Shown here: in pieces, positions 28,781 through 57,836 of the stretch
Layout of the letters: every line of letters starts with the position of its first letter
How positions within the stretch are numbered: the first letter of the stretch is position 1
Origin: Diadema setosum
Taxonomy: Eukaryota > Echinodermata > Echinoidea > Diadematoida > Diadematidae
Direction of reading: 5' to 3'
DNA: 64,000 nucleotides
NCBI GenBank assembly: GCA_033980235.1
Contig: CM067069.1
Span: 18,906,650-18,970,649 of the forward strand
The notes under the pieces: generated by a model
What the model saw: only the letters and a program-made list of their open reading frames with translations
Databases searched by the model: none
Told to the model about the DNA's origin: nothing
Program-made: the position numbers and the translations under genes

Positions 28781-28787
28781 CGATCGA

Positions 28788-31342: not shown

Positions 31343-31416
31343 TATGGCACGCCAGAAGGGAATCAAATAATTATGTTCGTATGGCACGCCAGAGGGGAAT
31401 CAAATATTTATGTTCG
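31343..31416. repeat. Tandem duplication of the 37-bp element terminus
   Basis: TATGGCACGCCAGAAGGGAA..ATTATGTTCG (31343-31379) is followed at once by TATGGCACGCCAGAGGGGAA..TTTATGTTCG (31380-31416). Only the second continues into ACACCAACTAAA. The other ends have a single copy. Confidence 0.85.
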
Positions 31417-32395
31417 ACACCAACTAAAAAACCATTTCATCAAGTAAAATTTCATTCAACAAAAATATATTCGACCAAATATATATTTGATAAAAGATAT
31501 ATTCAATAAAATATGTATTTGACAAAAATATATTCCAACAAAATATATATTTGACAAAAATATATATATATTTCACCAAAATATATTTGACCAAAATTAT
31601 ATTTGACCAAAAATATATTTGACCAAAAATATATTCGACAAAATATATATTTCACCAAAAATATATTTGACACAAAATATGTTTGACCCAAAATATATTT
31701 GACCAAAAAATATATCTGACGAAAATATATTCGACAAAATATATTCATTTCAACAAAAATATATTAGACCCAAAATATATTTGACAAAAAGTGTTTTACA
31801 TACATGGCTTTCCATACTTTCGAAAAAAAAAATCATTCGATGAACGAAAAACCATTCCATGAAAATACATTTCATGAGCTGAAATACGTTTCATGACGAA
31901 ATACGTTCGACAAAACGAGTGCGCAATATTCGCTGTGTACCAAGCTGGCCCATGCGACTTGTCTACATGCAGCGCAACACGTACGCATGCATACACTGCA
32001 CGTGTACCATGCATAGCACACTACTACTGCTAGCTAGCCCGTCATGTCATCGGCGCGACTCGACTGCGCCGCTGGCCGCCGCGGTGGGATGCTCGATCGA
32101 GTGGTGGGGTTTGAGCGCGGTAGCTTTCGCGATTTCGATGTCGATCTAGCTCAAGACTTCACGCATGGGCCATGGCTTCCACTTTTCTGAAAGTGGGAGT
32201 AGGAATGATCCCGCTATGGCGTTATGCAAAAGATTCAGCACAGCTTAATCTTCGCCATTGCCAGTTGGCGAGCGCGAGATCGGGATCAGGTCGTGGCCGT
32301 GGCCGTGGCAGAGCAACATCAGCTGTAACCGCATGCAGCAGTGACCCCAACACGTTACTGGTTACAGCGCCCCGCGCCGGGGTTACATCATCACA
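31343..32395 (+). repeat. Terminal module R1 (outer left)
   Basis: In order it holds the 37-bp terminus, GTTCGACACCAACTAAAAAA, an array of ATATTTGACCAAA-like units (about 31440-31810), CATTCGATGAACGAAAAACC-type repeats, a GC-rich segment, CTGAAAGTGGGAGTAGGAAT, GGCGTTATGCAAAAGATTCA, and GACCCCAACACGTTACTGGT up to GGGGTTACATCATCA. The same order is found in the modules at 45107, 46069 and 56738, two in each orientation. Confidence 0.8.
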
Positions 32396-34701
32396 ATACA
32401 AATACACGTACAACCAGTTAATGGTACATAGTACTAGTATTTCATCACATCATCACTATACAACCAGCTATATACCTCATCACTATACAACCAGATACAT
32501 ACTTCATCACTACAACCAGATACATACTTCATCACTACAACCAGATACTTCATTTGATGAATCTTCAAGTCTGATTGGTTAAGAATTGGGGCATACAGTC
32601 AGCAATTACCTGTAGTTCCCACAGTACCCAAACTGACCCATATTATACTAAACTGCCCTCTTGATTTGTAGCAGCACATTCATATGCACATGTAGGGTAA
32701 GCACTTGGCTTCAATAGTGAGAGAGGTGACCAATATCCAATACGATTGCAATGCACGTGAAATGGCAGCGTAGATGTGTGAATTGGCTATCCAAGAGCTA
32801 TTGCCATCAACCTACTAAATTTTCATACAATTTTCTTCATTATAATACATGTATGTACAGATATGAACTGCTTTCCTTCAAGGCAGTTGTTGCTATCGGT
32901 GCCCCTGTAAGGTTCCTTGGGTCATAGCACAGAGCAGAGATCCCTCGTGGTAATGATATCAACAATTCCCCGAAGAGCAGTCCATATTTGCACTCTAGGA
33001 GATTGTCATTAAAAACTTCATGTCTGAATAGATGGGAGAAGTGTTGTGTGGTGGTTAGTAGAGGTGCCATTGAACTACGGCAAACATATTCCATATGTAG
33101 TATCAAAATGTCAATAAATGTTTGTAGAATGTTGAAGGAATTGAACTACAGTCAACCTTGCCCATGTCGAATCTATTTGGACTGAAGAAATAGCTTCGAT
33201 CAGAGAAAATTCAACTAATGAGGGATTAAAATTAATAGAATGTACCGCTATAAAGAGAAGAGGACTTGAAAAGGACCTTTGACTTGGTTGATTATTTGAC
33301 TTATGCGAGGCCAGCTTAAGCAAGGTTGACTGTATTTTCATTTGTGGTGGAACTTTTGCAGCAGTTATCAAAGAATGAATAAAACTGGATACAAATATAG
33401 AATCCATGTTATAAATTTTTTTTTTTTTTTTTTTTGTATGTGAGGGGGTGTGTGTGTGTTTTCATTTGATTGCTCTTATGGTTTGTTCACTTATAGGTCT
33501 CCATACTTTCAACACTGTTATTATTCCTCAAGTACTAGTAGTATGTTGCACTGCATCTTGTATGAAAAAAACAAACACCAAAACCTCTAATTTTGCAGTC
33601 ATTCACCTGGAGCACATACATTTGTACTGTACTCTTCTGGGCAGCAGTAAACTAATTTGCCCATTTACAATGAACTGGTTGTTTCCAGTCGCACAACTTA
33701 CAATATATATAGAAAACTTACAGTTTGTGGGATGGCGTCATTCAGTTGTGTACACAGCTATATGATGTGCGTAGTAACTATCTCACTTTTTCAGTCATAA
33801 ATTTATCTTGTGTATCATTCATCCACTCATGCATTCAATCACTCCTTTCACTTTGTATGCCAAGTTAACAAGGAAAGATATTCGTGCCATACCAATCACA
33901 AGATGGAAATTTAATTGCAGTCATTAACAATTCTGGACATAAAAGAAATACAAAGTCTATGTAAATAACACTGTATATTCAAATTGGCTTGTCATTATTC
34001 AACAAGACAGCTCGCACTGCTGTTGTATGTATTCCACACAACCTACTAAAGAGCTCTGAACCACACTGCTTTCACAGTAGTTTGGGTACAGTCTCTTTGT
34101 TATCGGTCCATATTTTCCATTCACAACAGACCCAAGAGATGTCACCTGTAGGCCATACAGTTTTGGGGGATAAATTGTTTCCTGTCATGAATCCCCACTG
34201 ATCCACTTACAATGTAACATGTAGGGGGCTCGTAGGCATGGCACATCCAGTCAATATTTGAAATATTACACTTTGAAAAGTCGCAAGTAATTAATGCAGG
34301 TTTGATTCATTTCAGAAGGGATCTTTCTTTTCTATCAAAAACAGATCCCTTAACTTCCAAGCTTCAATCATATTTCTTACATGTCATGTGGTTGAAGCTT
34401 CTCTGGCATTGCCAGCTTAATGCCACAGTCAAGGTGTCACAAATTCCAATCTTTCAAATTCATGAAATCAAATTCCAATCTTCTACAATCTAAATGAGGC
34501 AATTGGCACAAATGTACATGCCTTGTCACATATCTTTTTTTTTTCTATATTTTTCAAATTCATTTTATTTCAGTCTCACAATAATGAATGAATGCTAATT
34601 TTGAATGGCAAGTACAATGCTTCTGCTCTGACATTATGCTGTATACTGTAAACCTGTTTCAATCAGAGGGGGCAGAAATTTGCTTACGACACAAGTTAGC
34701 C
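32396..34701. other. Left-arm interior, outer part; mirrored at 54482-56737
   Basis: Starts with short ACTATACAACCAGATACATA-type repeats (32440-32550). One frame (32840-33106, minus) is preserved in both arms and is listed separately. A poly-T tract lies at 33417-33437. The left arm lacks 366 bp found in the right arm (54482-54847). Other short frames show no clear protein features. Confidence 0.5.
32840..33106 (-). CDS. Conserved open frame in left arm, unknown function
   Basis: An 88-residue frame reads ..LTTTQHFSHLFRHEVF, NDNLLECKYGLLFGELLISL, PRGISALCYDPRNLTGAPIA. The copy at 56057-56338 keeps the frame, with changes concentrated at the end. The composition looks like protein and not like random AT-rich sequence, and it could be an exon of a captured gene. 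No family was recognised. No good splice sites were confirmed around it. Preservation in both arms may simply reflect recent duplication. Confidence 0.3.
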   Translation of the reverse strand: MILHMEYVCRSSMAPLLTTTQHFSHLFRHEVFNDNLLECKYGLLFGELLISLPRGISALCYDPRNLTGAPIATTALKESSSYLYIHVL

Positions 34702-34705
34702 TTAA

Positions 34706-34789
34706 CCCAATGAGGACTGACTGATTTTGCGACAACAAGCATTTCCCATAGACACCTGCCCTAGTATACTCCGACTGGTTCTCAATTGG
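34706..34789. mobile_element. TTAA-flanked MITE, diverged copy (left arm)
   Basis: TTAA (34702-34705), then CCCAATGAGGACTGACTGAT, the core GCATTTCCCATAGACACCTG, and the end GGTTCTCAATTG, TTAA (34790-34793). The core matches the MITE at 40511. The terminal repeats are degraded, so this is an older insertion. The right-arm counterpart is cut by the N gap. Confidence 0.7.
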
Positions 34790-36822
34790 TTAAGAGGAAA
34801 CTCTGTTAAGCCAGACTTGAAGCACCTCCAGACATAAAGAATCTTACTCGCAAGTGGTACATGTACACTGATCTTTGAAGGCACTGAACACATAATCAAA
34901 TTCTTGTTAACATGAAAACTTGGCTTACACCAGTCTACTGTCAGCCGCCATTACAGGACAAAGATCATCAATGTAAAGTATTGTATCATCCAATGAAGTC
35001 CCATTCTCTGAGTATGACTACTGCACATCAATAGTTTATACAGGATCCTGCTGTGTACTTCACTGTGAAAACAACCTACAAACAATCAGAGTTAACATGA
35101 TACAGACTACAACTGTGTCAAAGATAAGGTGGGTCTGAAAGTCAAGACTACACACAAGGCCTTATGAACATCAATGCTGAACTGTTACCACATACTAGTA
35201 TATTATTCTGTATGTACAACTTTAATAAAGATGTGGAGTGTAAAACAGATGCACCCATCGTGTCACTGACTTCATTTGTATTTCCAGTTCCAGTGTATAT
35301 TGTAAGCAACTTTGTTCAACTTTGTCAATAAACAAAACTATTTCACATTGATCACTTAAATAAACAGGATTCAAGTCAACATCCCTTTAAAATTAACTCT
35401 GAGACAAATAGAACTATGCAGATATTCATCAGTCTAGAGATACCACACAATTACACTTGCTGCAGGAAGTCTTTAATATTAGAATCTCAGATAAGCTGGA
35501 AACATGATCAAGAGAGGCACTCCTGTATGGATTGTACATTGCTAAGTAATTGAAAAATAAAAACTTTATAAGACCAAGGAGGTACTAGTACCTCCTTGAT
35601 AGGACGATAATTTGTAAATTTACGAATAATTTCTGAATCCAAAAGAAAGATTCATATACACTCAACAACACTGACAAACAGACAGACACACAATAAAAAC
35701 TCACACACCTGTGAAGGAACTTTGTTCACAATGTGGACTAAATCACATTTTTGAACTAAGGAAAACCCACTAGAACTTTAGAAGGCTGAGAGCTAAACAC
35801 TATCAATTCTGTTTATGCTCTTCCAGCATTATCACAGCCAATGTGAAAAACTGAATGTGGATTTTTCTTCCCAACACCAGGATGTAAATCCTGCCTTTCC
35901 ACTGTAAATCTTACTGTTTTCAACAATCTACATATGGCAATTTATAGTCTACAGTCAGGGGTCCTTCAGCTCATATCATGTAATCTGACAATGTAAGTAC
36001 ATTTCAATTGGACCACAGTGATCAAATTAATCTATCATAAAATTTCATTCAAAGTTAAATGGTGCAGTATTTCGAGATATTTACATTGTAACCTCTGGCA
36101 ATTTCAAGAGTCATGAATACTGAGGAAACACCACAGACAGTATTTTTGTACTGAGCAAGGTGATATCCAATATTCTTACAGAGCTAGACCTGCTCATAAT
36201 AAAGAGGATAAAATGGGTTTATCCCTTGCATAGAGACTATAAAATCTCTATCCCATCAAAAGTGCTATTCATTGGAGTGGGTAAAAGGAAAGCGATGGAA
36301 GGTTAATGGCAGGATGATGTCACGGTTTAGGGACAATATGAAGAATGATAGGAAAATGATGTGCTGTCACATTAGTGTCATGATGATGTCACAGTGTTTG
36401 GTGATGATGTCACAATAATGTGAGAATGATGCTATGATGTTGTAAAGGTATAAGAATTATGTCTTGATGACAATGACGATGATGATGATGATTTAGTCTT
36501 ATTCATAGAGGGTAGCCACTTTAGTGATCTTTGCACTGTTCTCCTTGTGGTTCCTGTTCACATTCATGAATGTAATTCAGCTATCAGGATTCTGTCATGA
36601 TAATCTAATGATGATGATGATGTGAGGATGTCATGTTGATAATGAGCTGGTGATGTGATAGGGATGTAACATTGTCATAAAAATAATACAAACATTATTA
36701 TGATGTCATGATGACTGAGGATGTGACATAAACACATTGAGTGGATTAGACATTGGAATGACTGGCAATGAGCCATATTATAATCAATCTTTCGCCTTCC
36801 CCTAACATCATCAGCTATCAAC

Positions 36823-36858
<36 letters not shown>

Positions 36859-37334
36859 TTGACTGAGAGTGATGGGTTGACATTGGTATTGGTATTCCTC
36901 TGAGTAACCAGTGCTATATAACTTGCAAATATATCAAAGACGATTCTGACAGAGAATGTCATCACAACTATGAAATCTGTATGTTTACTTGGGAAAGGGG
37001 AGGGAAAGAACTAACCTGAATTCAATTTCATAGGGGCATGATTTGTTTTGTCCCTTTAAGCAGCATTACACATTAAAATGTTCTTGTCATCTTATCATCA
37101 TACAAATCTGTAACGCTGAAAGACTGCAATAGTGCAGATGAAAGAGTTGGCATTCATGTACCAATTGCAAAATTTCAAATACATGAAATCAAATGCTACA
37201 GATTCAAGAAATGAACTATATATGCATTACTCAATACTGGCAACCTTCATCATCAATAAAAACCATTATCAGTCATAATTGTTTAAAGTAAATGCCCATT
37301 ATAAGAACCATGAGAAACACTTAAATATAAAACC

Positions 37335-37643
37335 TTGTGCAAACAGGAACACTTCCATAAGGCAAAAAAAAAATCATTGTATTGGCGTAACCTGCCCGAC
37401 CCTGAACTTTTCACACACAAAAAAAAAAGGAAATACATCGTTTTTACTGAGAGAGGGCGCGATACGGGTTTGCGAATTATCAAAAACAACAACAACAGCT
37501 GGTGTCAGAAAATGACCGCGCAGTACAGCGTGTTTGCGACTGATAAGTCCGGTTCGAAGATTTTCTTTAGTATTATTCAGAGAATCGATTTGTCAGTGGC
37601 GCTGGGTGATTTAGCCCAGGAATTTCTGACCGGTACGTCGTGA
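37335..37643 (+). other. CpG-richer open frame of unknown origin
   Basis: Around 37500-37640 base composition shifts to CpG-rich. The frame contains KMTAQYSVFATDKSGSKIFF and IQRIDLSVALGDLAQEFL before a TGA at 37641. It could be a captured first exon or CpG-island fragment. No family was recognised and no splice sites are convincing. Confidence 0.3.
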
Positions 37644-37814
37644 CGGCTTTTAAACTGGTTATATAACAAATTTTGGATGCAACAGACCCTCTCTATCGAA
37701 TGGGGTTTCGTTAAATATGAGTTTTACACCTAAAATACAGGTAGCAGGTACACAGTCTTCACTTATTAATGACTTTCACTGAGTATACCCAACCAAACAA
37801 ATGTCCACAAGTAC

Positions 37815-38147
37815 ATGTACGAAGATTTTGACAGATTGAATGCGTCAGAAATACTGCAAAACCACATAAGATTCCTGCCAAGTATCAATGAGACCATCGT
37901 CAGGTCAAACAAGTTCAAAATCACACAGTTGCTTGATGATGTGACGCCGACTCAACCGCCGATGACCCTACTTTTAATCTCCGGCACAACTAAGACAGAG
38001 GAAGTCAGCATCACCAAGAAACAGATATCTGAAATGAGCAACAAAAATCAGTCAATCGAGAATAAGTCATTAAAAGGAGTTCTATGGAAAAGAGTAAAAC
38101 TGTGCCTGATTGCCCCTCTAATTAAACAGACATGGAAGTCATTGTAG
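37815..38147 (+). CDS. Unidentified open frame, possible captured exon
   Basis: A 110-residue frame reads MYEDFDRLNASEILQNHIRF, LPSINETIVRSNKFKITQLL, then PTQPPMTLLLISGTTKTEEV and a Lys/Ser-rich end. Mixed hydrophobic and charged composition and codon use are more protein-like than the surroundings. A pyrimidine-poor upstream region gives no clear acceptor. It lies only in the left arm, where the right arm is N. Function unknown. Confidence 0.3.
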   Translation: MYEDFDRLNASEILQNHIRFLPSINETIVRSNKFKITQLLDDVTPTQPPMTLLLISGTTKTEEVSITKKQISEMSNKNQSIENKSLKGVLWKRVKLCLIAPLIKQTWKSL

Positions 38148-38573
38148 TGCATTAGACATTAAATTAGTCAATTATATCATCCAGTCAGCAGCCTATGAAA
38201 CCAAATATATAGCATTATTTTCCTACAAATATCTTATAAAGTGAAAAAAAGTATAAGAAACCTCTAATTTTCTCAAAACATGAAGCAGAGCAGAATACAA
38301 GAAATCCTACAGAAGTGCTGAGGTTTAGTTGTGAAGAAGTACAATCATAATGACAGATGTTTTACACATGGTTAACTCATTCAATTTTTTTGCTTTTAAA
38401 GGACACATTTGTACACATTAGCGTACAATGGGCAATAATTTTACAATGTGTACAATTAACAATTAGCCTGTGATATTTAAATGACGGCCCTTGGTTTCAA
38501 CAATAACATGACAAAAGTGTGCGAATACACCAGTGGGATGGGAGAAGGGGAGGGAAGTTCATGCCACACTCAC

Positions 38574-38674
38574 CTTATACTGACAGTGCTTCCATCTGGA
38601 ATATTTCCTGTAGTGGTGGGAAGTAGATAACCAACATCAGTTACATCTTGAAGGACAGCTAACCAAGGCATAAT
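38574..38674 (-). pseudogene. SPCA-type Ca2+-ATPase fragment, exon c (left arm)
   Basis: The exon is bounded by ACATGCAG|ATTATG and ATAAG|GTGAGT on the minus strand, 101 nt, entering in phase 0 and leaving in phase 2. Its end, GNIPDGSTVSI plus a split Arg codon, fits the luminal loop that precedes the RDTTMTF block in secretory-pathway Ca2+-ATPases. The first 22 residues are not recognisable, so an alternative acceptor (CCACTACAG) may be the true one. The exon that should follow was not found. Confidence 0.4.
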
Positions 38675-39302
38675 CTGCATGTTTGACAACATTACTTATC
38701 AAAATTATCACTCATTACTTTATGTTGAAACGTACTGACAAAGTCTGTACGCAACTGAGCTATTTCATCACCAGTGGTGCATCAGACAGTATGTAGGCCT
38801 ATGGTCTTGTATTCATACATGTATGCTACACGTCTTTTTATGACTTTGTCTGACACAGAGAAGGCTGAGGCAGGATTGCATCTAATTGAGAGGAAAAGTC
38901 ATTATTACAGTGCCATCTGGACTGCTTGACAGGCACAAGTTGATAAATCCCAGCTCAAGATAGTATCATGCTTGTCCTTATACTCTGAAAAGGCTTCATG
39001 GAGCAAAACAATTCATTGCATACTGTATGTGAAGATGAATGCTGCTACTGCATGTACTAATATACACAGCCAAGTATCTATAAAGACAATGGATAAATCT
39101 AATCAAATCAATACATGTATCATTATCTAATATTACAATCCGCATGACAAAGCATCTGACAGAAGATAGCTTGCTAAATGCACTAATGTTATCACTCGGC
39201 ACAATGTAGCAAAGGCATAATATTACAATTATGTAAAGGAAGAACTTGACCAATATTAATAGAAATGTGTGTACAGTCATGGACAATAAAGGGAGCACTA
39301 AC

Positions 39303-39450
39303 CTCTCTCCAGAAGACCCAGAGGATTCCCACGACGATGATGAGGGCAGACATGACTACATAAATAAGAAGAGGTCTGGTGATCATGGGGTCACGAACCT
39401 AACGAGGAGGCTTCCTTATTACATCCTTGTCCAATGGCTCCACTCCGAGA
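39303..39450 (-). pseudogene. SPCA-type Ca2+-ATPase fragment, exon b (left arm), with stop
   Basis: On the minus strand the exon reads LGVEPLDKDVIRKPPR, a TAG stop (39399-39401), then DPMITRPLLIYVVMSALIIV and VGILWVFWRE. This is the SPCA (ATP2C/PMR1) segment joining two C-terminal membrane helices. Canonical splice sites flank it (GTCCAG|TCTCGG and GAGAG|GTTAGT). The stop sits where family members have a sense codon, and the right arm carries the same stop. The protein would otherwise pump Ca2+/Mn2+ into the Golgi. Confidence 0.75.
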
Positions 39451-40119
39451 CTGGACAGAGGAGTGGGGAGAGAATGAAACATTATCATACAGTCATGTGA
39501 ACTACAGAATGCACAATTTTTTTTTTCATGTCAGTATTTGTTCATTATCCATCTTTGATAATACATGTATACACACTCTTTCTTTTTTTTTTTTTTTACA
39601 GAATGAACAAATATTTGTCCTTTCTTCCAAATTAACAATAAAATCTGTAGCCATATAGACAGAAAGAATTTCTGGAAACAACATTAATGTGTAGAGTAGA
39701 AATAGCTGGCGTCCAGACTTCCCAATAAGAAGGGTCACAAAGAGAAGGAGAGTGGCATACAAATGAGACTTCGAAACACTGCTGATTTGAGAGGTATTGA
39801 TTTTTACTTTTACAAAATTATTTTCCCCATGACTGAAGAATTATAATGGTACTCACTAAGATGCTGCTTTAGCCGATGAAAAGGTAAAATGAAATATTTT
39901 GAAACCAAAGCTTTAATGAGGTTCAAAGATATTTGCTTGAAGAAATTTGATTGATTGATTGATTAGTTGATTGATTGATTGACTGATTGATTGATTGTGA
40001 ATCTTTATGCAGAGTGGCCTGATTAGACTGAATCAGAATAATGACTGCACTGCCGGCATAATTGCTCTCCCCCTTCAGAATACTCTCAGACCTGCTGATG
40101 TGTGCACATTGTGGCTCAC

Positions 40120-40237
40120 CCTTGAGCAGGTGGTCCTTCCATGATGACGTTGATCCAAAGGCTCTGCATGGCATTGAGTGGGTTGGGAAACCTCATGATG
40201 ATGGATAGGGCTATCAGGGTCCAAGGCAGCTATGCTC
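40120..40237 (-). pseudogene. SPCA-type Ca2+-ATPase fragment, exon a (left arm), frameshifted
   Basis: The minus strand encodes SIAAL, then after one extra G (TTGGACCC) [20 protein letters not shown] and [13 protein letters not shown]. This is the membrane helix region with the PLNAMQ-LWINIIMDGPPAQ signature of secretory-pathway Ca2+-ATPases. It splices in phase 2 to exon b, giving GPPAQGLGVEP. The family's conserved Asp in the DGPPAQ motif is Glu here. The extra base is present in both arms. Upstream exons (phosphorylation and nucleotide-binding domains) are absent from the 2 kb before it. Confidence 0.78.
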
Positions 40238-40510
40238 CTACCAACACAGAGAAACAAACAAACAAACAAAATCATATGTTGCAATCTAACTTCATAGATC
40301 CTTCACTTCATACTTTTGCATAATCATTAATGTGTCCATGCAAATTGGTCATTACGGGATAAGTTTTCATCAATAATTCAAATTTCAACTGATTTCTTGC
40401 AAAGTAGAAATCAATACATAATCTTATCACAATTTGTATTCATGTTTGTTTCAATCAAATTACAAATGATTATAAATGATTACACATATTAACATCATAT
40501 TTGTTATTAA

Positions 40511-40595
40511 CCCGTTGAGGACGGACTGATTTTGCTACAACACGCATTTCCCATAGACACCTGCCCAAGTATACTCGGGACTCGTCCTCAACGGG
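40511..40595. mobile_element. 85-bp TTAA-target MITE (piggyBac-like), left arm only
   Basis: The terminal repeats are CCCGTTGAGGACG and CGTCCTCAACGGG, flanked by TTAA at 40507-40510 and 40596-40599. The right arm has the empty site with a single TTAA at 51389-51392. The insertion therefore happened after the two arms separated, or is a haplotype difference. Its size and TTAA target match non-autonomous piggyBac-type elements. Confidence 0.85.
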
Positions 40596-41094
40596 TTAAG
40601 GGGTCATTTTCAATAAGACTACGTTGTGCTTCACATGATTTCTCCATTATCATATTTGACACAGTGCATTTTTGTTTGTTTGTTTGTGTTTTTAATACAG
40701 ATTTTGTCAACCAATAATGAAAGTGAAAATAAATGAGATGAATGAATGAAATGGATGAATGAATAACGTTTGTTGGAGAATAAGCACCAACCCATTTTGA
40801 TTCTTCCGTGAAAACACTGTTTAGAGTCTTTAATGCCTATATTTGAATAATTATTCCACCATACAATTATTTTGCACGGAATGAAGTATACAATCTTTCG
40901 TTTTTGGCATGCAGAACTCAATTGAAGCAAAAATAGTGAACCATTTTAAGCCAAACATTTTCGTGTGTATTCCAATTTTGCAAATTTTGTGAGATCCAAG
41001 AGTCACAAAATCAAAATACATGTACATGCAAAAGTTCTTGTTTACACTGTATGCACTGTATGCATTGAATTCAAGTGGCATGCTGAACTAGAAT

Positions 41095-42205
41095 GGTATG
41101 CCTCCGCCATAATGCATGATTCTCCTAATAGGTCTACTGTACATGTGGACAATGTGTGATTACATTTTCACACAATTGGCAAAATATTAAAATAAAAAGT
41201 TTGTCACAAATGTGTTGAATATTCACCTTCATTGACCTAAGTTTAATTGGATGAATAGGAGAGCATGCATTTGGGGATTTAAGGACTTTAACTTGACTTT
41301 GCCCATTCATAAGTTTATGCATTGAGTACTTTTCAAGGTATGGAGAAAAAGTGCAATTTCTGTATTGAAAAGTACATTGTTACCATTTTCATCTGGCTTT
41401 TGACCGTAAAATTCATAGGATAATCACTGTCAGGCAGAACATGCATAAATATGTAGAAAGTTTCAAGATACCTTGAGCCACTTCTGAGATATGGAGGAAA
41501 GAGTTAGTTCGGCACTTTCCCTTGATCTTTGACCTTTTGACCTTTAAAGCAAAAAAAAAAGAAAAGAAAAAGTTTCCAGAGAATCTCTATCAGGTTATAC
41601 ATGCATACACCAAGTGTAAAAAAAAAATAATAATCCCGCTGGCATTGCATAAATATGAGGGAAATAGTAAAATGTTGAAGTGTTGCCCTTGTCTTTGGCC
41701 CCTGACCTTTGACCCCATGAACCCTAAATTCTCTAGATAATCATTGTCAGTCGGTACATGTATATATGCTATGTTCCATGAAGATACCATGAACAATTTC
41801 CAAGTTACGGACAAAAAAAAATTGTTACTTGACCTTTTGACCTTTGACCTCATGACCCCAAACTTCCACCAGAGAATCTTAATTGGGTAATACATGTATA
41901 CACTAAGTTTTAAGAAAATATCTTCAGGCATTGCATAGATATGGTGGAAATAGTGAAATTTTACATATTTGACCTTGACCTTTTGACCTTTGATCTTGAG
42001 CATGTGCACCCAAAAGTTGATAGGCACAACTTCACCCCCTAATACACATACATGCCAAGTTTCATTAGGATACCTCAAAAGGTTTTTTAGTTACGCTGTC
42101 CACAAAATTCATTACGGACGGAAGGACGGACGGACGGACGGACGGACAACCCGAAAACATATATAATGCCTCCGGCACCACTTCGTGGCGGAGGCATAAA
42201 AAAAA
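41095..42205 (-). repeat. GGCGGAGGCAT repeat with nuclear-receptor-like half sites (left arm)
   Basis: The minus-strand start has ATGCCTCCGCCACGAAGTGG, then GTCCGTCC repeats (42116-42147), then tandem TGACCTTTGACC modules at 41525-41545, 41698-41716, 41828-41852 and 41967-41990. It ends near GGTATGCCTCCGCCATAATG (41095-41115). It is a dispersed repeat type seen in marine invertebrates. The right-arm copy is 49845-50885. Confidence 0.7.
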
Positions 42206-42670
42206 AGAAAAAAAAGGCTGTCAGCTGTGATTCAAGAAAATTTCACACTGCAAATATTTCTTGCTTTACAGTATGCACAAAACTACTTCCATTGTGGTGT
42301 AAGAACAACATTTTGTGTAAGTAGAGAATAGAGATTGTTAAGAATTGGGTGTGCACTTTTGATTATTGCAACACAAGATAGATACTCTAGAATCTACTTT
42401 TTGAAACAAAAATCTTTACAGTATCCTGTCTTCATTTCTTTCTGAATCTACAACTCCTCAAAGATTAGCTGATTGATGTAACTACCTTTATGAGGGTCGT
42501 AAAATTTTGATACACACTGATCAGGATCCTCTGATGAAATAGTTATCGCAGCACAAGCATGGCTCCTGTAAGCAATATGTTGATTAAACAGAATTTCCTC
42601 ACTAGTTAAAGTCAGGGTTAACCACTCTGGAATTGGACTCCAGCTATCACTGGGGTAACATGACTCTCAC

Positions 42671-42765
42671 CTGGTATAGCCATTGAAGACAGCTGCTCTG
42701 GTTTGTCCAAAAGATCCACATTCTCTCGACGACGGAAAGACTTTGACTTGGCACCAGCAAAGTTC
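42671..42765 (-). pseudogene. ABM-like fragment, exon 3 (left arm)
   Basis: Between TTTCAG|GAACTT and ACCAG|GTGAGAG the minus strand encodes NFAGAKSKSFRRRENVDLL and DKPEQLSSMAIPG, in phase with exon 2 at 43098. The pattern (a hydrophobic-polar segment ending in a Pro-containing strand) fits the C-terminal half of an ABM dimeric alpha-beta-barrel fold. The left copy has one more Arg codon than the right. Family assignment is tentative. Confidence 0.35.
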
Positions 42766-43703: not shown

Positions 43704-43735
<32 letters not shown>

Positions 43736-46985: not shown

Positions 46986-47904
46986 TAGCCCGACCAGACG
47001 GAGTACGCTGTGCGAATATCCTACGTACAGCGACTGGGCTGTGTATAGTTACGGCAGCGCCTGCCATGACGATCCGGTCTCCAACCCAAACATCAAGCAG
47101 GCCAATTAGGGCAAATAGACCACAGCCTGAGCTGAGGCTGTAAATAGGCTCAGGCTCAACCACCGGCACCGCACCGGCACTACGGGCTCAGCCTCAGCAA
47201 CCCCAGGTTGGTAAACTGTCGTAGACCGATGAGATCTGTATCTGTATGGTTTAGTCAGCAAAATGTCCAGGAAGACACATCCACGGTAACTTGTAGAGGA
47301 GCACTACGTGCTGACAGAGCGCGACCATTGAAATTTGTCTGAGATCTGTCTCTTCTCGTTGCCGTTGGTCTCCGGCGGTAGTAAAATGGTAATGCAGTAT
47401 TGGCAGTAAGCCAATATCGTATCTAAGAGGCAAGAAGATATACCTCAAATTTCACTCTACCAAATTCCACCAAAATTTCAGGGATTCCTTAGTATCTCAT
47501 TACCAGTCACTCGCATAAATTTGAATTAAATGAGACATGGGGAAGCATTGAATTCAACGTTGACATAGTTGTGGTTGTTTCTGCTCGCGCTCACAGCTTA
47601 CGCTGTCTAATGTTAACGTTACACATTACGGTGGCTTTTAAATAAGGGGGACCATCATAGACATCATAAAAAACAAGGTTATATGGGTCTATGCCTTCTA
47701 ACCTGGAGTAATGTGTAACTCAGATTGCTAGTTGTTCTCCCCCCCCCCCCCCCCCCCCCATGAGACTAACAATTAGAGTTACTGTCACACAGGTCAGTAT
47801 CATTACGACAGCGCGTTGCTGACTGCAGTTATTCACGCGATCACGATTACTCTCCACAGGCATTCATTGTCGGCAGGTAGGAGGAAAAGAATATGAAGTT
47901 TCCG

Positions 47905-47958
47905 TGACAACCTGAGGACATACGTTGATGCAGCAGGAAGAGATGATGGATGTGTGAG
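47905..47958 (+). pseudogene. ABM-like fragment, exon 1 candidate (right arm)
   Basis: Mirror of 44068-44122: LRTYVDAAGRDDGCVR up to GTGAG|GTAAGAC. The upstream text differs between arms (CCGTGAC here, AAAGTGAC on the left), and stops remain in all frames. Confidence 0.3.
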
Positions 47959-48888
47959 GTAAGACATCGTGTCCTCATTGCTAGATTCCCACTGGTGTGA
48001 TATTTTGAATGGAAAGTGCTTCAGTAATATACTAATCACAGAGTAAGGAAAATTGACTTTATTTCTTTTCTTTTTTTTCTTCTATGAATGTGATGTTTCT
48101 TATGGAAAGTTATGAGATTGAATAAGCTGAATGAACAATTCTCAGAGGATATAGATATGTGATATAAACAGCCATCCCTATCTTTCAACAGAGCAGAATT
48201 CTGGATGCCTAATCCAGTCAAGTACTAACTCAGTCAAGTACTTGTACTGTTTGAAAATTGTTGTTCAAATTTTACCTCTTTATTGTTATTTATTTGTGTG
48301 TGTGTGCGTGTGTGTGTGTATGTGTGTGTGTTGAAACTAAAGTTTCAAAGATGAAGTTTAGGAAGTCAAGACTTTATGCCCCATTGTGAATGTTTTTTAC
48401 TTTTGTGATAAACTTGGAATATAGTGATTTGGTGTGTTTTTTCAAAGCTAGTAATATTAGGAATAATAAAGTAGTGATGGTAGTGATCATAATAAAATTT
48501 TCATGATGAATTATCACTGTTGTTATTTATACTTGAATAATGAAAATGATGTTTCTAGTCATGATTATCATCATCATCATCATCATTTATCATTGCTTTC
48601 CCCCTTGCAGAATTACAATCTATATGCCTCTAAATATATTGTAGGCAAACTGTAATAGCAGTACCTAGAGAAACCTGAAACAAGTACCGGTACATCAATA
48701 TGGTACTAATTGGAAACATTTCAGTTCATCTTTTCAACATCAAGTTTATTATATGTTGGTAAAATTATGTTCCAAAAGGTATACAGTATTTACCCAGTAA
48801 TGTCATGCATTGTATTTCTTTTGTTTCCACTAATACACAATGGCAGCTACAGTGTGAGAATGTTTGAGGCCATGAGGGGACCTGTAAC

Positions 48889-48932
48889 TATGCCGTCTAC
48901 GAGATCTGGGAAACAGAAGAGGACTGGAAGAC
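48889..48932 (+). pseudogene. ABM-like fragment, exon 2 (right arm), acceptor damaged
   Basis: Encodes YAVYEIWETEEDWKT as in the left arm. Here CTGTAACTATGCC replaces CTGTAACTACAGTATGCC, removing the acceptor AG. If the left-arm splice is real, the right copy cannot use it. Confidence 0.35.
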
Positions 48933-49265
48933 GTGAGTCACTTTGTGTGGATCTCTATTGATCCAGTGATGGTTTTGTCAAGGTTTGACACTGTAGCTCC
49001 TTATTATAAAGCATAGAGTATTAAGTTCAGAAGAAAATCAAGCAAACAATTCCATACTTCATTTGTCAGAATAAATTGTGCAGTATTAAAAGAAAAAAAA
49101 AAGTGTCGTGTTCAGAATGTGTTCACTGTTATTGTAGTTTGTGTTTATTTGTTTGTTTGATGGGTCACAGGATTTCTGTACCAGATGTAATTGCTTATGA
49201 TTTGTGGTATTTTGTAGTACATGTATCATGTTCTTTGTTGATAAGCTTGTCTTGTATTCTTTCAG

Positions 49266-49357
49266 GAACTTTGCTGGTGCCAAGTCAAAGTCTTTCCGTC
49301 GAGAGAATGTGGATCTTTTGGACAAACCAGAGCAGCTGTCTTCAATGGCTATACCAG
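49266..49357 (+). pseudogene. ABM-like fragment, exon 3 (right arm)
   Basis: Acceptor TTTCAG|GAACTT and donor ACCAG|GTGAGAG are conserved. It reads NFAGAKSKSFRRENVDLLD then KPEQLSSMAIPG, one Arg codon shorter than the left arm because one of two adjacent CGT/CGA triplets is absent. Confidence 0.35.
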
Positions 49358-49844
49358 GTGAGAGTCATGTTACCCCAGTGATAGATGGAGTCCAATTCCA
49401 GAGTGGTTAACCCTGACTTTAACTAGTGGGGAAATTCTGTTTAATCAACATATTGCTCACAGGAGCCATGCTTGTGCTGCGATAACTATTTTATCAGAGG
49501 ATCCTGATCACCCTCGCAGTGTATATCAAAATTTTACGACCCTCATAAAGGTAGTTACATCAATCAGCTAATCTTTGAGGAGTTGTAGATTCAGAAAGAA
49601 ATGAAGACAGGATACTGTAAAGATTTTTGTTTCAAAAAGTAGATTCTAGAGTATCTATCTTGTGTTGCAATAATCAAAAGTGCACACCCAATTCTTAACA
49701 ATCTCTATTCTCTACTTACACAAAATGTTGTTCTTACACCCCAATGGAAGTAGTTTTGTGCATACTGTAAAGCAAGAAATATTTGCAGTGTGAAATTTTC
49801 TTGAATCACAGCTGACAGCCTTTTTTTTTTCTTTTTTTTTATGC

Positions 49845-50885
49845 CTCCGCCACGAAGTGGTGCCGGAGGCATTATGTTTTCAGGTTGTCCGTCTGTCCAT
49901 CCGTCCGTCCTTCCGTCCGTAATGAATTTTGTGGACAGCGTAACTAAAAAACCTTTTGAGGTATCCTAATGAAACTTGGCATGTATGTGTATTAGGGGGT
50001 GAAGTTGTGCCTATCAACTTTTGGGTGCACATGCTCAAGATCAAAGGTCAAAGGTCAAGGTCAAATATGTAAAATTTCACTATTTCCACCATATCTATGC
50101 AATGCCTGAAGATATTTTCTTAAAACTTAGTGTATACATGTATTACCCAATTAAGATTCTCTGGTGGAAGTTTGGGGTCATGAGGTCAAAAGGTCAAGTA
50201 ACAATATTTTTTGGTCCGTAACTTGGAAATTGTTCATGGTATCTTCATGGAACATAGCATATATACATGTACTGACTGACAATGATTATCTAGAGAATTT
50301 AGGGTTCATGGGGTCAAAGGTCAGGGGCCAAAGACAAGGGCAACACTTCAACATTTTACTATTTCCCTGATATTTATGCAATGCCAGCGGGATTATTTTT
50401 TTTTTTTTACACTTGGTGTATGCATGTATAACCTGATAGAGATTCTCTGGAAACTTTTTCTTTTCTTTTTTTTTTTTGCCTTAAAGGTCAAAAGGTCAAG
50501 GTATCTTGAAACTTTCTACATGTTTATGCATGTTCTGCCTGACAGTGATTATCCTATGAATTTTACGGTCAAAAGCCAGATGAAAATGGTAACAATGTAC
50601 TTTTCAATACAGAAATTGCACTTTTTCTCCATACCTTGAAAAGTACTCAATGCATAAACTTATGAATGGGCAAAGTCAAGTTAAAGTCCTTAAATCCCCA
50701 AATGCATGCTCTCCTATTCATCCAATTAAACTTAGGTCAAGGAAGGTGAATATTCAACACATTTGTGACAAACTTGTTATTTTAATATTTTGCCAATTGT
50801 GTGAAAATGTAATCACACATTGTCCACATGTACAGTAGACCTATTAGGAGAATCATGCATTATGGCGGAGGCATACCAGTCGCCT
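49845..50885 (+). repeat. GGCGGAGGCAT repeat with nuclear-receptor-like half sites (right arm)
   Basis: Starts ATGCCTCCGCCACGAAGTGG and TGCCGGAGGCATTATG, continues with GTCCGTCC repeats, and ends GGCGGAGGCATACCAGTCGC then CTTAGCGACATTTCTAG. It contains AGGTCA-A-AGGTCA-AGGTCA at 50045-50063 and GGGTCA-A-AGGTCA near 50312-50324, plus two-base-spaced pairs near 50184 and 50486. Confidence 0.7.
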
Positions 50886-51661
50886 TAGCGACATTTCTAG
50901 TTCAGCATGCCACTTGAATTCAATGCATACAGTGCATACAGTGTAAACAAGAACTTTTGCATGTCCATGTATTTTGATTTTGTGACTCTTGGATCTCACA
51001 AAATTTGCAAAATTGGAATACACACGAAAATGTTTGGCTTAAAATGGTTCGCTATTTTTGCTTCAATTGAGTTCTGCATGCCAAAAACGAAAGATTGTAT
51101 ACTTCATTCCGTTCAAAATAATTGTATGGTGGAATAATTATTCAAATATAGGCATTAAAGACTCTAAACAGTGTTTTCACGGAAGAATTAAAATGGGTTG
51201 ATGCTTATTCTCCAACAAACGTTATTCATTCATCCATTTCATTCATTCATCTCATTTATTTTCACTTTCATTATTGGTTGACAAAATCTGTATTAAAAAC
51301 ACAAACAAACAAACAAAAAGGCACTGTGTCAAATATGATAATGGAGAAATCATGAGAAGCACAACGTAGTCTTATTGAAAATGACCCCTTAATAACAAAT
51401 ATGATGTAAATATGTGTAATCATTTATAATCATTTGTAATTTGATTGAAACAAACATGAATACAAATTGTGATAAGATTATGTATTGATTTCTACTTTGC
51501 AAGAAATCAGTTGAAATTTGAATTATTGATGAAAACTTATCCCGTAATGACCAATTTGCATGGACACATTAATGATTATGCAAAAGTATGAAGTGAAGGA
51601 TCTATGAAGTTAGATTGCAACATATGATTTTGTTTGTTTGTTTGTTTCTCTGTGTTGGTAG

Positions 51662-51779
51662 GAGCATAGCTGCCTTGGACCCTGATAGCCCTATCCATCA
51701 TCATGAGGTTTCCCAACCCACTCAATGCCATGCAGAGCCTTTGGATCAACGTCATCATGGAAGGACCACCTGCTCAAGG
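51662..51779 (+). pseudogene. SPCA-type Ca2+-ATPase fragment, exon a (right arm), frameshifted
   Basis: Mirror of 40120-40237. After TTGGTAG|G, SIAAL is followed by one extra G and then [33 protein letters not shown]. Donor CAAGG|GTGAGC joins exon b in phase 2. The same extra base as in the left arm shows the damage predates the arm duplication. Confidence 0.78.
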
Positions 51780-52446
51780 GTGAGCCACAATGTGCACACA
51801 TCAGCAGGTCTGAGAGTATTCTGAAGGGGGAGGGCAATTATGCCGGCAGTGCAGTCATTATTCTGATTCAGTCTAATCAGGCCACTCTGCATAAAGATTC
51901 ACAATCAATCAATCAGTCAGTCAATCAATCAATTAATCAATCAATCAATTAAATTTCTTCAAGCAAATATCTTTGAACCTCATTAAAGCTTTGGTTTCAA
52001 ATATTTCATTTTACCTTTTCATCGGCTAAAGCAGCATCTTAGTGAGTACCATTATAATTCTTCAGTCATGGGGAAAATAATTTTGTAAAAGTAAAAATCA
52101 ATACGTCTCAAATCAGCAGTGTTTCGAAGTCTCATTTGTATGCCACTCTCCTTCTCTTTGTGACCCTTCTTATTGGAAAGTCTGGACGCCAGCTATTTCT
52201 ACTCTACACATTAATGTTGTTTTCAGAAATTCTTTCTGTCTATATGGCTACAGATTTTATTGTTAATTTGGAAGAAAGGACAAATATTTGTTCATTCTGT
52301 AAAAAAAAAGAAAGAAAGAGTGTGTATACATGTATTATCAAAGATGGATAATGAAAAAAATACTGACATGAAAAAAAAAATTGTGCATTCTGTAGTTCAC
52401 ATGACTGTATGATAATGTTTCATTCTCTCCCCACTCCTCTGTCCAG

Positions 52447-52594
52447 TCTCGGAGTGGAGCCATTGGACAAGGATGTAATAAGGAAGCCTCCTCGTTAGGT
52501 TCGTGACCCCATGATCACCAGACCTCTTCTTATTTATGTAGTCATGTCTGCCCTCATCATCGTCGTGGGAATCCTTTGGGTCTTCTGGAGAGAG
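52447..52594 (+). pseudogene. SPCA-type Ca2+-ATPase fragment, exon b (right arm), with stop
   Basis: Acceptor CTGTCCAG|TCTCGG, text LGVEPLDKDVIRKPPR, TAG at 52496-52498, then DPMITRPLLIYVVMSALIIV and VGILWVFWRE, donor GAGAG|GTTAGT. The stop is shared with the left arm. Splice sites are intact in spite of the stop. Confidence 0.75.
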
Positions 52595-53215
52595 GTTAGT
52601 GCTCCCTTTATTGTCCGTGACTGTACACACATTTCTATTAATATTGGTCAAGTTCTTCCTTTACATAATTGTAATATTATGCCCTTGCTACATTGTGCCG
52701 AGTGATAACATTAGTGCATTTAGCAAGCTATCTTCTGTCAGATGCTTTGTCATGCGGATTGTAATATTAGATAATGATGCATGTATTGATTTGATTAGAT
52801 TTATCCATTGTCTTTATAGATACTTGGCTGTGTATATTAGTACATGCAGTAGCAGCATTCATCTTCACATACAGTATGCAATGAATTGTTTTGCTCCATG
52901 AAGCCTTTTCAGAGTATAAGGACAAGCATGATACTATCTTGAGCTAGGATTTATCAACTTGTGCCGTCAAGCAGTCCAGATGGCACTGTAATAATGACTG
53001 CTCCTCTCAATTAGATGCAATCCTGCCTCAGCCTTCTCTGTGTCAGACAAAGTCATAAAAAGACGTGTAGCATACATGTATGAATACAAGACCATACATA
53101 CTGTCTGATGCACCACTGGTGGTGAAATAACTCAGTTGTGTACAGACTTTGTCAGTACGTTTCATCATAAAGTAATGAGTGATAATTTTGATAAGTAATG
53201 TTGTCAAACATGCAG

Positions 53216-53316
53216 ATCATGCCTTGGTTAGCTGTCCTTCAAGATGTAACTGATGTTGGTTATCTACTTCCCACCACTACAGGAAATATTCCAGATGGAA
53301 GCACTGTCAGTATAAG
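53216..53316 (+). pseudogene. SPCA-type Ca2+-ATPase fragment, exon c (right arm)
   Basis: Mirror of 38574-38674. Acceptor ACATGCAG|ATCATG and donor ATAAG|GTGAGT. It ends GNIPDGSTVSI. The next SPCA exon should lie just beyond, where the right arm has its N gap, but the left arm shows none in the equivalent 3.4 kb. Confidence 0.4.
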
Positions 53317-53706
53317 GTGAGTGTGGCATGAACTTCCCTCCCCTTCTCCCATCCCACTGGTGTATTCGCACACTTTTGTCATGTTATTGTTGAAACCAAG
53401 GGCCGTCATTTAAATATCACAGGCTAATTGTTAATTGTACACATTGTAAAATTATTGCCCATTGTACGCTAATGTGTACAAATGTGTCCTTTAGAAGCAA
53501 AAAAATTTAATGAGTTAACCATGTATAAAACATCTGTCATTATGATTGTACTTCTTCACAACTAAACCTCAGCACTTCTGTAGGATACAATATTTCTTGT
53601 ATTCTGCTTTGCTTCATGTTTTGAGAAAATTAGAGGTTTCTTATACTTTTTTTTCACTTTATAAGATATTTGTAGGAAAATAATGCTATATATTTGGTTT
53701 CATAGG

Positions 53707-53906
53707 NNNNNNNNNNNNNNNNNNNNNNNNNNNNNNNNNNNNNNNNNNNNNNNNNNNNNNNNNNNNNNNNNNNNNNNNNNNNNNNNNNNNNNNNNNNNNN
53801 NNNNNNNNNNNNNNNNNNNNNNNNNNNNNNNNNNNNNNNNNNNNNNNNNNNNNNNNNNNNNNNNNNNNNNNNNNNNNNNNNNNNNNNNNNNNNNNNNNNN
53901 NNNNNN
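53707..53906. other. Assembly gap, 200 N
   Basis: Exactly 200 N, likely a fixed-size placeholder. By comparison with the left arm about 3.4 kb may be missing. The right edge lies inside the diverged TTAA MITE. Confidence 0.95.
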
Positions 53907-53974
53907 CGGAGTATACTAGGGCAGGTGTCTATGGGAAATGCTTGTTGTCGCAAAATCAGTCAGTCCTCATTGGG
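53907..53974. mobile_element. Diverged TTAA MITE, cut by the gap (right arm)
   Basis: CGGAGTATACTAGGGCAGGT to CAGTCCTCATTGGG followed by TTAA (53975-53978) is the complement of 34706-34773. The rest of the element is lost in the N run. Confidence 0.75.
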
Positions 53975-54481
53975 TTAAGGCTAACTTGTGTCGTAAGCAA
54001 ATTTCTGCCCCCTCTGATTGAAACAGGTTTACAGTATACAGCATAATGTCAGAGCAGAAGCATTGTACTTGCCATTCAAAATTAGCATTCATTAATTATT
54101 GTGAGACTGAAATGAAATGAATTTGAAAAATATAGAAAAAAAAAAAGATATGTGACAAGGCATGTACATTTGTGCCAATTGCCTCATTTAGATTGTAGAA
54201 GATTGGAATTTGATTTCATGAATTTGAAAGATTGGAATCTGTGACACCTTGACTGTGGCATTAAGCTGGCAATGCCAGAGAAGCTTCAACCACATGACAT
54301 GTAAGAAATATGATTGAAGCTTGGAAGTTAAGGGATCTGTTTTTGATAGAAAAGAAAGATCCCTTCTGAAATGAATCAAACCTGCATTAATTACTTGCGA
54401 CTTTTCAAAGTGTAATATTTCAAATATTGACTGGATGTGCCATGCCTACGAGCCCCCTACATGTTACATTGTAAGTGGATC

Positions 54482-54847
54482 AGTGTTGTAATTGTTGGAA
54501 GTGCTTCAAGTCTTTTTTGAAAAGGCGCTATATACTGTAATTATTGGTTATCATATGTTATTATGTTTTATCTGTGAGTGTCTGATGAAGAAAATGTATG
54601 TTTCAATATCTCTCATGTTTCAACAGGAGAAATATGGGGGTTATTTCAGTGCAAATTGTAATCTGTGATGCAACTTTTACAACATAACGGTAAGCATACA
54701 AATTTTACCTGGTAATACATGTACTCAGTAATATTCAGATCTTACTCAGTAACATGAAATAACAATGCCATAATGTTAGAAATACTGCCTGCTGGCTCAT
54801 CTGTGAAATAAGTTCAGCCTCTGAAATCTTGTTACTTCTGGCCATAA
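54482..54847. other. 366-bp segment present only in the right arm
   Basis: Between sequences matching 34200 and 34190 of the left arm the right arm has an extra 366 bp (coordinate sums drop from 89047 to 88681). No terminal repeats were seen. A left-arm deletion is as likely as a right-arm insertion. Confidence 0.65.
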
Positions 54848-56056
54848 GTGGGCGATTCATGACAGGAAACAATTTATCCCCCAAAACTGTGTGGCCTACA
54901 GGTGACATCTCTTGGGTCTGTTGTGAATGGAAAATATGGACTGATAACAAAGGGACTGTACCCAAACTACTGTGAAAGCAGTGTGGTTCAGAGCTCTTTA
55001 GTAGGTTGTGTGGAATACATACAACAGCAGTGCGAGCTGTCTTGTTGAATAATGGCAAGCCAATTTGAATATACAGTATTATTTACATAGACTTTGTATT
55101 TCTTTTATGTCCAGAATTGTTAATGACTGCAATTAAATTTCCATCTTGTGATTGGTATGGCACGAATATCTTTCCTTGTTAACTTGGCATACAAAGTGAA
55201 AGGAGTGATTGAATGCGTGAGTGGATGAATGATACACAAGATAAATTTATGACTGAAAAAGTGAGATAGTTACTACGTACCAATACATCATATAGCTGTG
55301 TACACAACTGAATGACGCCATCCCACAAACTGTAAGTTTTCTATATATATTGTAAGTTGTGCGACTGGAAACAACCAGTTCATTGTAAATGGGCAAATTA
55401 GTTTACTGCTGCTCAGAAGAGTACAGTACAAATGTATGTGCTCCAGGTGAATGACTGCAAAATTAGAGGTTTTGGTGTTTGTTTGTTTTTTTTCATACAA
55501 GATGCAGTGCAACATACTACTAGTACTTGAGGAATAATAACAGTGTTGAAAGTATGGAGACCTATAAGTGAACAAACCATAAGAGCAATCAAATGAAAAC
55601 ACACACACACACACACCCTCACATACAAAAAACAAAAACAAAACAAAAAAAACTTGGCACATAATAGCATGGATTGTGTTCCTTTTCAATCCATGACTAT
55701 GATTGTGATGAAATTAGTGTATCATCCTTGCAAGTTTTATAACATGGATTCTATATTTGTATCCAGTTTTATTCATTCTTTGATAACTGCTGCAAAAGTT
55801 CCAACACAAATGAAAATACAGTCAACCTTGCTTAAGCTGGCCTCGCATAAGTCAAATAATCACCCAAGTCAAAGGTCCTTTTCAAGTCCTCTTCTCTTTA
55901 TACCGGTACATTCTATTAATTTTAATCCCTTATTAGTTGAATTTTCTCTGATCGAAGCTATTTCTTCAGTCCAAATAGATTTGACATGGGCAAGGTTGAC
56001 TGTAGTTCAATTCCTTCAACATATTCTACAAACATTTATTGACATTTTGATACTAC

Positions 56057-56338
56057 ATGGAATATGTTTGCCGTAGTTCAATGGCACCTCTACTAACCAC
56101 CACACAACACTTCTCCCATCTATTCAGACATGAAGTTTTTAATGACAATCTCCTAGAGTGCAAATATGGACTGCTCTTCGGGGAATTGTTGATATCATTA
56201 CCACGAGGGATCTCGGCTCTGTGCTATGACCCAAGGAACCTTACAGGGGCACCGATAGCAACAACTGCCTTGAAGAAACGCAGTTCATATCTGTACATAC
56301 ATGTATTATATAATGAAGAAAATTCTATGAAAATTTAG
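56057..56338 (+). CDS. Conserved open frame in right arm, unknown function
   Basis: Counterpart of 32840-33106. It reads LTTTQHFSHLFRHEVF, NDNLLECKYGLLFGELLISL, PRGISALCYDPRNLTGAPIA and then diverges. Frame kept, function unknown, no splice sites confirmed. Confidence 0.3.
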   Translation: MEYVCRSSMAPLLTTTQHFSHLFRHEVFNDNLLECKYGLLFGELLISLPRGISALCYDPRNLTGAPIATTALKKRSSYLYIHVLYNEENSMKI

Positions 56339-56737
56339 TAGGTTGATGGCAATAGCTCTTGGATAGCCAATTCACACATCTGCGCTGCCATTTCACGTGC
56401 ATTGCAATCGTATTGGATATTGGTCACTTCTCTCACTATTGAAACCAAGTGCTTACCCTACATGTGCATATGAATGTGCTGCTACAAATCAAGAGGGCAG
56501 TTTAGTATAATATGGGTCAGTTTGGGTACTGTGGGAACTACAGGTAATTGCTGACTGTATGCCCCAATTCTTAACCAATCAGACTTGAAGATTCATCAAA
56601 TGAAGTATCTGGTTGTAGTGATGAAGTATGTATCTGGTTGTATAGTGATGAGGTATATAGCTGGTTGTATAGTGATGATGTGATGAAATACTAGTACTAT
56701 GTACCATTAACTGGTTGTACGTGTATTTGTATTGTGA

Positions 56738-57830
56738 TGATGTAACCCCGGCGCGGGCACGTTGGTTGCGGGGCGCTGTAACCAGTAACGTGTTGGGGTC
56801 ACTGCTGCATGCGGTTACCGCTGATGTTGCTCTGCCACGGCCACGACCTGTTCCCGATCTCGCGCTCGCCAACTGGCAATGGCGGAGATTAAGCTGTGCT
56901 GAATCTTTTGCATAACGCCATGGCGGGATCATTCCTACTCCCACTTTCAGAACAGTGGAAGCCATGGCCCATGCGTGAAGTCTTGAGCTATAGATCGACA
57001 TCGAAATCGCGGAAGCTACCGCGCTCGCGCTCAAACCCCACCACTCGATCGAGCATCCCACCGCGGCGGCCAGCGGCGCACCACTGCGCCGCGCCGATGA
57101 CGGGCTAGCTAGCTGTAGTGTGCTATGCATGGTACACGTGCAGTGTATGCATGCGTACGTGTTGCGCTGCATGTAGACAAGTCGCATGGGCCAGCTTGGT
57201 ACACAGCGAATATTGCGCACTCGTTTTGTCGAACGTATTTTGTCATGAAACGTATTTCAGCTCATGAAATGTATTTTCATGGAATGGTTTTTCGTTCATC
57301 GAATGATTTTTTTTTTTTCGAAAGTATGGAAAGCCATGTATGTAAAACACTTTTTGTCAAATATATTTTGGGTCTAATATATTCTTGTTGAAATGAATAT
57401 ATTTTGTCGAATATATTTTCGTCAGATATATATTTTGGGTCAAACATATTTTGTGTCAAATATATTTTTGGTGAAATATATATTTTGTCGAATATATTTT
57501 TGGTCAAATATATTTTTGGTCAAATATAATTTTGGTCAAATATATTTTGGTGAAATATATATATATATATTTTTGTCAAATATATATTTTGGTGAAATAT
57601 ATATATATATATTTTTGTCAAATATATATTTTGGTCAAACCTTTATATGTTTTTGTCAAATATATATTTTGTTTGAATATATTTTTGTCAAATACATATT
57701 TTATTGAATATATCTTTTATCAAATATATATTTTGTCGAATATATTTTTGTTGAATGAAATTTTACTTGATGAAATGGTTTTTTAGTTGGTGTCGAACAT
57801 AAATATTTGATTCCTCTCTGGCGTGCCATA
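56738..57830 (-). repeat. Terminal module R4 (outer right)
   Basis: Reading from 57830 on the minus strand: TATGGCACGCCAGAGAGGAA, TATTTATGTTCGACACCAAC, the ATATTTGACCAAA-like array (57755-57345), TTCGATGAACGAAAAACC, the GC-rich segment, and CTGAAAGTGGGAGTAGGAAT to GGGGTTACATCATCA. It mirrors R1 closely. Unlike R1 it has one copy of the 37-bp terminus. Confidence 0.8.
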
Positions 57831-57836
57831 GCTCCC
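57831..57836. repeat. Target-site duplication GCTCCC, right copy
   Basis: GCTCCC follows the terminus ..GGCGTGCCATA and matches 31337-31342 in the same direction. Confidence 0.85.

Follow-up and report, generated by a model that had tools for sequence, protein, structure and literature searches.

A 26.5-kb near-palindrome in Diadema setosum best read as two nested copies of a large transposon in a putative immunoglobulin-superfamily exon

Structure of the near-palindrome

The 64-kb stretch of Diadema setosum DNA analysed here (from CM067069.1; hereafter the window) holds a near-palindrome at 31343-57830 that appears to interrupt an immunoglobulin-superfamily gene. At its outer ends the 13-bp sequence TATGGCACGCCAG stands in inverted orientation (31343-31355, plus strand; 57818-57830, minus strand), bordered on both sides by GCTCCC in the same direction, both as described in the initial annotation. 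That annotation regarded the structure as an inverted dimer of a mobile element, inserted as a unit or dimerised after insertion. Instead, complete inner element ends, a 6-bp duplication belonging to them and a displaced outer tip were found. We therefore consider it very likely that the structure is not a one-unit dimer but the product of two successive insertions, with the second copy nested in inverted orientation in the tip of the first (Table 1).

TATGGCACGCCAG was found at four sites in the window, at 31343 and 31380 on the plus strand and at 46056-46068 and 57818-57830 on the minus strand. All four were exact; a search allowing one mismatch gave four sites, against 0.03 expected. The left border holds two element starts, 37 bp apart. 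A complete left (L) end begins at 31380, and the inner copy ends in CCATA at 46068. The 37-bp tip in front of it (31343-31379) had no mismatch in 37 positions to the right (R) end of the inner copy, two to the inner L end and three to the outer L end; where the inner L and R ends differ, at two positions, it carried the R-end base each time. The final 31 bp of the element are missing from the second arm at the centre; they stand at 31343-31373, followed by the 6-bp duplicate. A mirror point at 46053 had been proposed, but the internal junction lies at 46068/46069 and the centre, of 27 nt, is asymmetric.

The 6-bp target-site duplication GCTCCC had been recognised earlier, whereas a second one, TGTTCG, had escaped notice. 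When borders were scanned within ±10 bp, the outer element had one coordinate pair with a 6-bp direct repeat. Two random 6-mers of the window match at a frequency of 0.00042, and the chance of both duplications was calculated by multiplication to be ∼2e-7, the borders being taken as fixed by the ends.

Without the inner insert and one TGTTCG, the outer element was collinear with the inner element. Their alignment covered 10,931 bases with 10,782 matches and 149 substitutions (1.36%; 81 transitions and 68 transversions), together with 61 indels, 25 of which were of 3 bases or fewer. Divergence per 1-kb bin was 0.76-2.55% in the 13 of 15 bins with data, and the highest value was that of the last, partial bin, which contains the R-end tandem array. 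Each copy bears private insertions. An ∼89-bp palindromic miniature element flanked by TTAA (40507-40595) distinguishes the inner copy from the outer one, which lacks it, and a sequence resembling it was seen by eye near 34.7 kb. The outer copy has a private stretch of ∼366 bp opposite 34195.

The mirrored arms are real, as 139 ungapped pairs were found, the 25 longest of which were 96-100% complementary. Their lengths had been given as about 14.7 and 11.8 kb. The second arm is indeed short, but only because a 200-N scaffold gap, the single N run in the window, stands in for a predicted ∼3.4 kb of sequence. The left-arm segment 34774-38191 is unpaired exactly at the gap, and the arm alignment ends at both contig edges. 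The centre junction lies within one contig, since the sequence is free of gaps from the left flank to 53706. Folding of the centre (45950-46160) as single-stranded DNA (ssDNA) gave −91.1 kcal/mol (z of −26.3, with 0 of 200 shuffles as low), which is a likely source of trouble in assembly and cloning.

Element content and the interrupted host exon

The left and right terminal inverted repeats (TIRs) of the inner copy matched at 82.5% over 496 columns, and an additional inverted block (L 803-1011 versus R 728-964) matched at 70.6%. Pfam was run on the inner copy in all six frames, with stops written as X, at E 0.1 for one frame and at E 1 for the rest. The sole family above its cut-off was Cation_ATPase_C, which belongs to a captured ATP2C piece, and a coding element was rejected on this basis. 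One other match, to Pox_TAA1 (E 0.06), was below the cut-off, and the remaining four frames were empty. Rfam gave no match in the whole window at gathering scores.

A large foldback carrying host exons within one 6-bp duplication, as first described, is present, and these exons are pieces of ATP2C. A PDB sequence search with the three minus frames returned ATP2C1-type calcium pumps in two of them (E 9e-21 and a weak E 0.005) and no match in the third. The reference used was the Diadema setosum protein P0020, top among the best 120 of 1508 matches. Four pieces on the minus strand of the inner copy are collinear with the C-terminal part of P0020; a convincing match to residues ∼794-835 was not found in the element. 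For the last piece the upstream bound was placed by eye, the underlying match starting at 38143. Both copies show the broken frame in the first piece and the stops in pieces two and three. Because these three pieces share their lesions, capture and decay of the fragment should predate the separation of the copies. Judged from the sequence, the element carries a decayed, host-derived ATP2C fragment with intervening sequence.

Outside the element, the left and right flanks rejoin in one open frame. In the left flank (22000-31342), Pfam matched nothing in the three plus frames. In the right flank (57837-64000), the plus frames yielded one sub-threshold C2-set match, which led to a second host exon. 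Of 50 donor-acceptor combinations tried, 16 kept the frame open into this next exon. The rejoined exon together with the next exon reached 36.2 bits for the C2-set domain (cut-off of 21); the right part alone scored 23.1 bits and the left part alone had no match. Although they are on two contigs, the flanks share an open frame and a domain, and both appear on this account to be part of one immunoglobulin-superfamily gene.

Table 1. Features of the nested elements and of the interrupted host exon (window coordinates)
Feature	Coordinates	Strand	Remarks
Interrupted host exon, 5' part, N half of immunoglobulin C2-set domain (putative)	31226..31342	+	after acceptor TTCTATTGCAG
Outer target-site duplication GCTCCC, left copy	31337..31342	+	single border pair within ±10 bp gives 6-bp repeat
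Outer element, terminal 37 bp of R end	31343..31379	-	severed by inner insertion; last 6 bases are the inner duplication copy
Inner target-site duplication TGTTCG, left copy	31374..31379	+	within outer element
Inner element, complete	31380..46068	+	14,689 bp, TATGG...CCATA
Inner left TIR, ∼484 bp	31380..31863	+	16-bp tandem array 31460-31790
Last ATP2C exon piece, to final residue 912	∼37908..38022	-	internal stop; inner copy only, partner in gap
ATP2C exon piece, residues 851-874	38566..38637	-	with stops; 79% identity; weak, 16.2 bits
ATP2C exon piece, residues 740-793	39300..39461	-	83% identity; in-frame stop; Cation_ATPase_C 33.1 bits, cut-off 27.3
ATP2C exon piece, residues 710-742	40122..40220	-	91% identity; frame broken on 5' side
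Inner right TIR, ∼471 bp	45598..46068	-	16-bp tandem array 45671-45988
Inner target-site duplication TGTTCG, right copy	46069..46074	+	
Outer element remainder	46069..57830	-	inverted relative to inner; includes scaffold gap
Outer element, first ATP2C exon piece	51679..51777	+	
Outer element, second ATP2C exon piece	52436..52627	+	match slightly overruns exon
Outer element, third ATP2C exon piece	53253..53324	+	
Scaffold gap, 200 N	53707..53906		stands for ∼3.4 kb missing from the outer element; left-arm partner 34774-38191
Outer target-site duplication GCTCCC, right copy	57831..57836	+	
Interrupted host exon, 3' part (putative)	57837..57893	+	donor picked by hand
Next host exon, C half of same immunoglobulin domain (putative)	58626..58760	+	borders inferred

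Nesting and its alternatives

By the proposed mechanism, an outer copy of a large non-autonomous TIR transposon would have inserted by cut-and-paste into a coding exon of the immunoglobulin-superfamily gene, duplicating GCTCCC. A second copy, in the opposite orientation, would then have landed in the outer one, 32-37 bases from its end, with duplication of TGTTCG; both insertions would have occurred at the present site and in this order. The transposase presumably came from elsewhere, most likely from an element of the IS3EU/GingerRoot kind, and the ATP2C fragment would have been captured and have decayed before the two copies separated. The pair resembles one 26.5-kb palindrome because the landing point was near the end and the orientation was inverted.

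Several observations weigh against this interpretation. The evidence for a family consists of two copies in one 64-kb window, and a six-frame Pfam scan of the inner copy recognised no transposase. Three neighbouring choices of borders gave a 6-bp repeat around the inner element (8 shared letters, TATGTTCG), and the pair adopted was picked for its TA..TA ends, as in the outer element. The right arm is bridged by nothing but the scaffold gap. As to the host gene, the splice join that scored 36.2 bits is one of the 16 open combinations and the sole one scored with the next exon, the rejoined exon alone gave immunoglobulin matches below threshold only, and no homologue of the interrupted gene was found at E 1 among 14 candidates (proteins of ∼250-790 aa). 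The data also fit stepwise nesting, and prior nesting followed by joint movement, alike.

Hairpin or snap-back copying could have turned one element into an inverted dimer that was inserted, or formed in place, as a unit. The near-perfect mirror arms, the single outer 6-bp duplication and the short, asymmetric 27-nt centre are in keeping with such an origin, but it fails to predict the displaced R-end tip, the 6-bp direct repeat around 31380-46068 and the complete L end at 31380. This origin is extremely unlikely in our judgement, and a single foldback dimer was rejected because the tip is displaced and the inner copy has a duplication to itself. The assembly could also be supposed to be at fault, either by chaining two haplotypes head to head or through a fold-back read at a contig end. 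The 200-N gap within the right arm would fit such an error, as would a centre that is difficult to assemble because of its fold of −91.1 kcal/mol as ssDNA, and the arm divergence of 1.36% is comparable to the 2.11% heterozygosity reported for Diadema setosum (PMC11066563). However, the centre junction is inside one contig that is gap-free from the left flank to 53706, the missing part of the right arm coincides exactly with the gap, and each copy has private insertions. Moreover, 6-bp duplications at both border pairs and a displaced tip are not expected from chained haplotypes, and the host flanks on the two sides make up one open frame and one domain. We hold an artefact to be very unlikely.

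Nesting might instead have taken place elsewhere, the 26.5-kb composite having later moved into the exon as a unit, by means of its outer ends or of the two L ends (31380 and 57830). With the outermost ends in use, the outer duplication alone could not separate joint from stepwise movement, and a complete L end does lie 37 bp from the left border. On the other hand, joint movement is required by no datum, and movement by the two L ends would leave 31343-31379 behind. Transposon size was reported to affect excision, autointegration and productive transposition of Sleeping Beauty and piggyBac (PMC3952818), which also speaks against a composite of this length. We regard this course of events as very unlikely. 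It is likewise hardly probable that the nested pair moves whole, as one mobile palindrome of ∼26.5 kb, and reached the exon in that state. Were it so, the host would have a mobile foldback carrying the ATP2C exon pieces twice, in inverted orientation, and double-stranded RNA from it could be directed at the parent gene.

Known systems, neighbouring features and significance

The nested copies were compared with known transposon kinds. IS3EU elements have TA..TA termini and usually 6-bp duplications, and both features are common to IS3EU and GingerRoot as described in PMC10045372. In the window, both elements have TATGG...CCATA ends and are flanked by 6 bp, GCTCCC and, with TA..TA ends, TGTTCG. 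No DDE transposase was recognised by Pfam in the six inner-copy frames, as would be expected of a non-autonomous element. The present element differs in its length of 14.7 kb, in the 16-bp tandem arrays of its long inverted repeats and in having no recognised transposase; it is classed as IS3EU-like, with putative membership. A literature search for IS3EU with sea urchin gave no match. Polinton/Maverick elements are marked by AG..CT termini and by DNA polymerase and integrase genes. They share a 6-bp duplication with the present element (PMC10045372), but were rejected, as the ends here are TA..TA and no DNA polymerase or integrase was matched by Pfam in the six inner-copy frames.

Pack-TIR elements of animals are likewise TIR transposons with host gene fragments (PMC8277862). 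ATP2C exon pieces lie between the TIRs here, and two copies with different duplications (GCTCCC and TGTTCG) are present, as in the transposing kind. The element is far above the 100-5,000-bp internal range of that survey, whose authors also tried a 10,000-bp cut-off; IS3EU and GingerRoot do not occur in its main text (PMC8277862). Foldback elements such as Drosophila FB and Tetris also have long inverted repeats with tandem repeats, and the middle of Tetris is described as having no apparent coding capacity (PMC4079207). Long inverted repeats with tandem arrays are present here, but the duplications are of 6 bp, not 8-10 bp, and the tandem unit is 16 bp. The corresponding values are 8-9 bp for Tetris duplications (9-10 bp in rearranged copies) and ∼220 bp for its tandem unit (PMC4079207), and FB4 duplications are of 9-10 bp (PMC8277862). 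TU is a foldback element of sea urchins, and a comparison with it must be taken as a lead alone. A literature search for sea urchin TU elements gave the Tetris paper alone, in which 'TU element' does not occur (PMC4079207). Autointegration of cut-and-paste transposons likewise involves landing in DNA of the same family (PMC3952818), whereas the two copies here are 1.36% apart; since they differ to this extent, the incoming copy would have been separate or the event old. No description of the present structure was recognised among the papers listed in our literature search.

Other features lie to the left of the nested pair. An open frame of 403 aa at 16799-18010 (minus strand) is SLC35G1-like. 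Over 336 aa it shares 94% identity with a protein of Diadema antillarum; its best Diadema setosum match is only 46%. Chained direct repeats of ∼80-85% in the same order connect 6508-9664 with 18033-20976, and may represent either another repeat family or a duplication of local origin. By eye, 672-1256, 12275-12676 and 26411-26845 (plus strand) look like fragments of LINE-type reverse transcriptase genes; Pfam found nothing in the frame that holds 26411-26845.

The structure is best read as an ordinary nested insertion, and not as a new giant-dimer type. It illustrates that a nested insertion near the tip of a transposon can imitate a giant inverted dimer, and that a displaced tip together with an inner duplication is diagnostic for nesting. 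It also provides an example of a large TIR transposon with gene fragments in a sea urchin, inserted in what appears to be an exon for an immunoglobulin domain. Should transcription of the inverted ATP2C copies occur, small-RNA effects on the parent gene would be directly testable.

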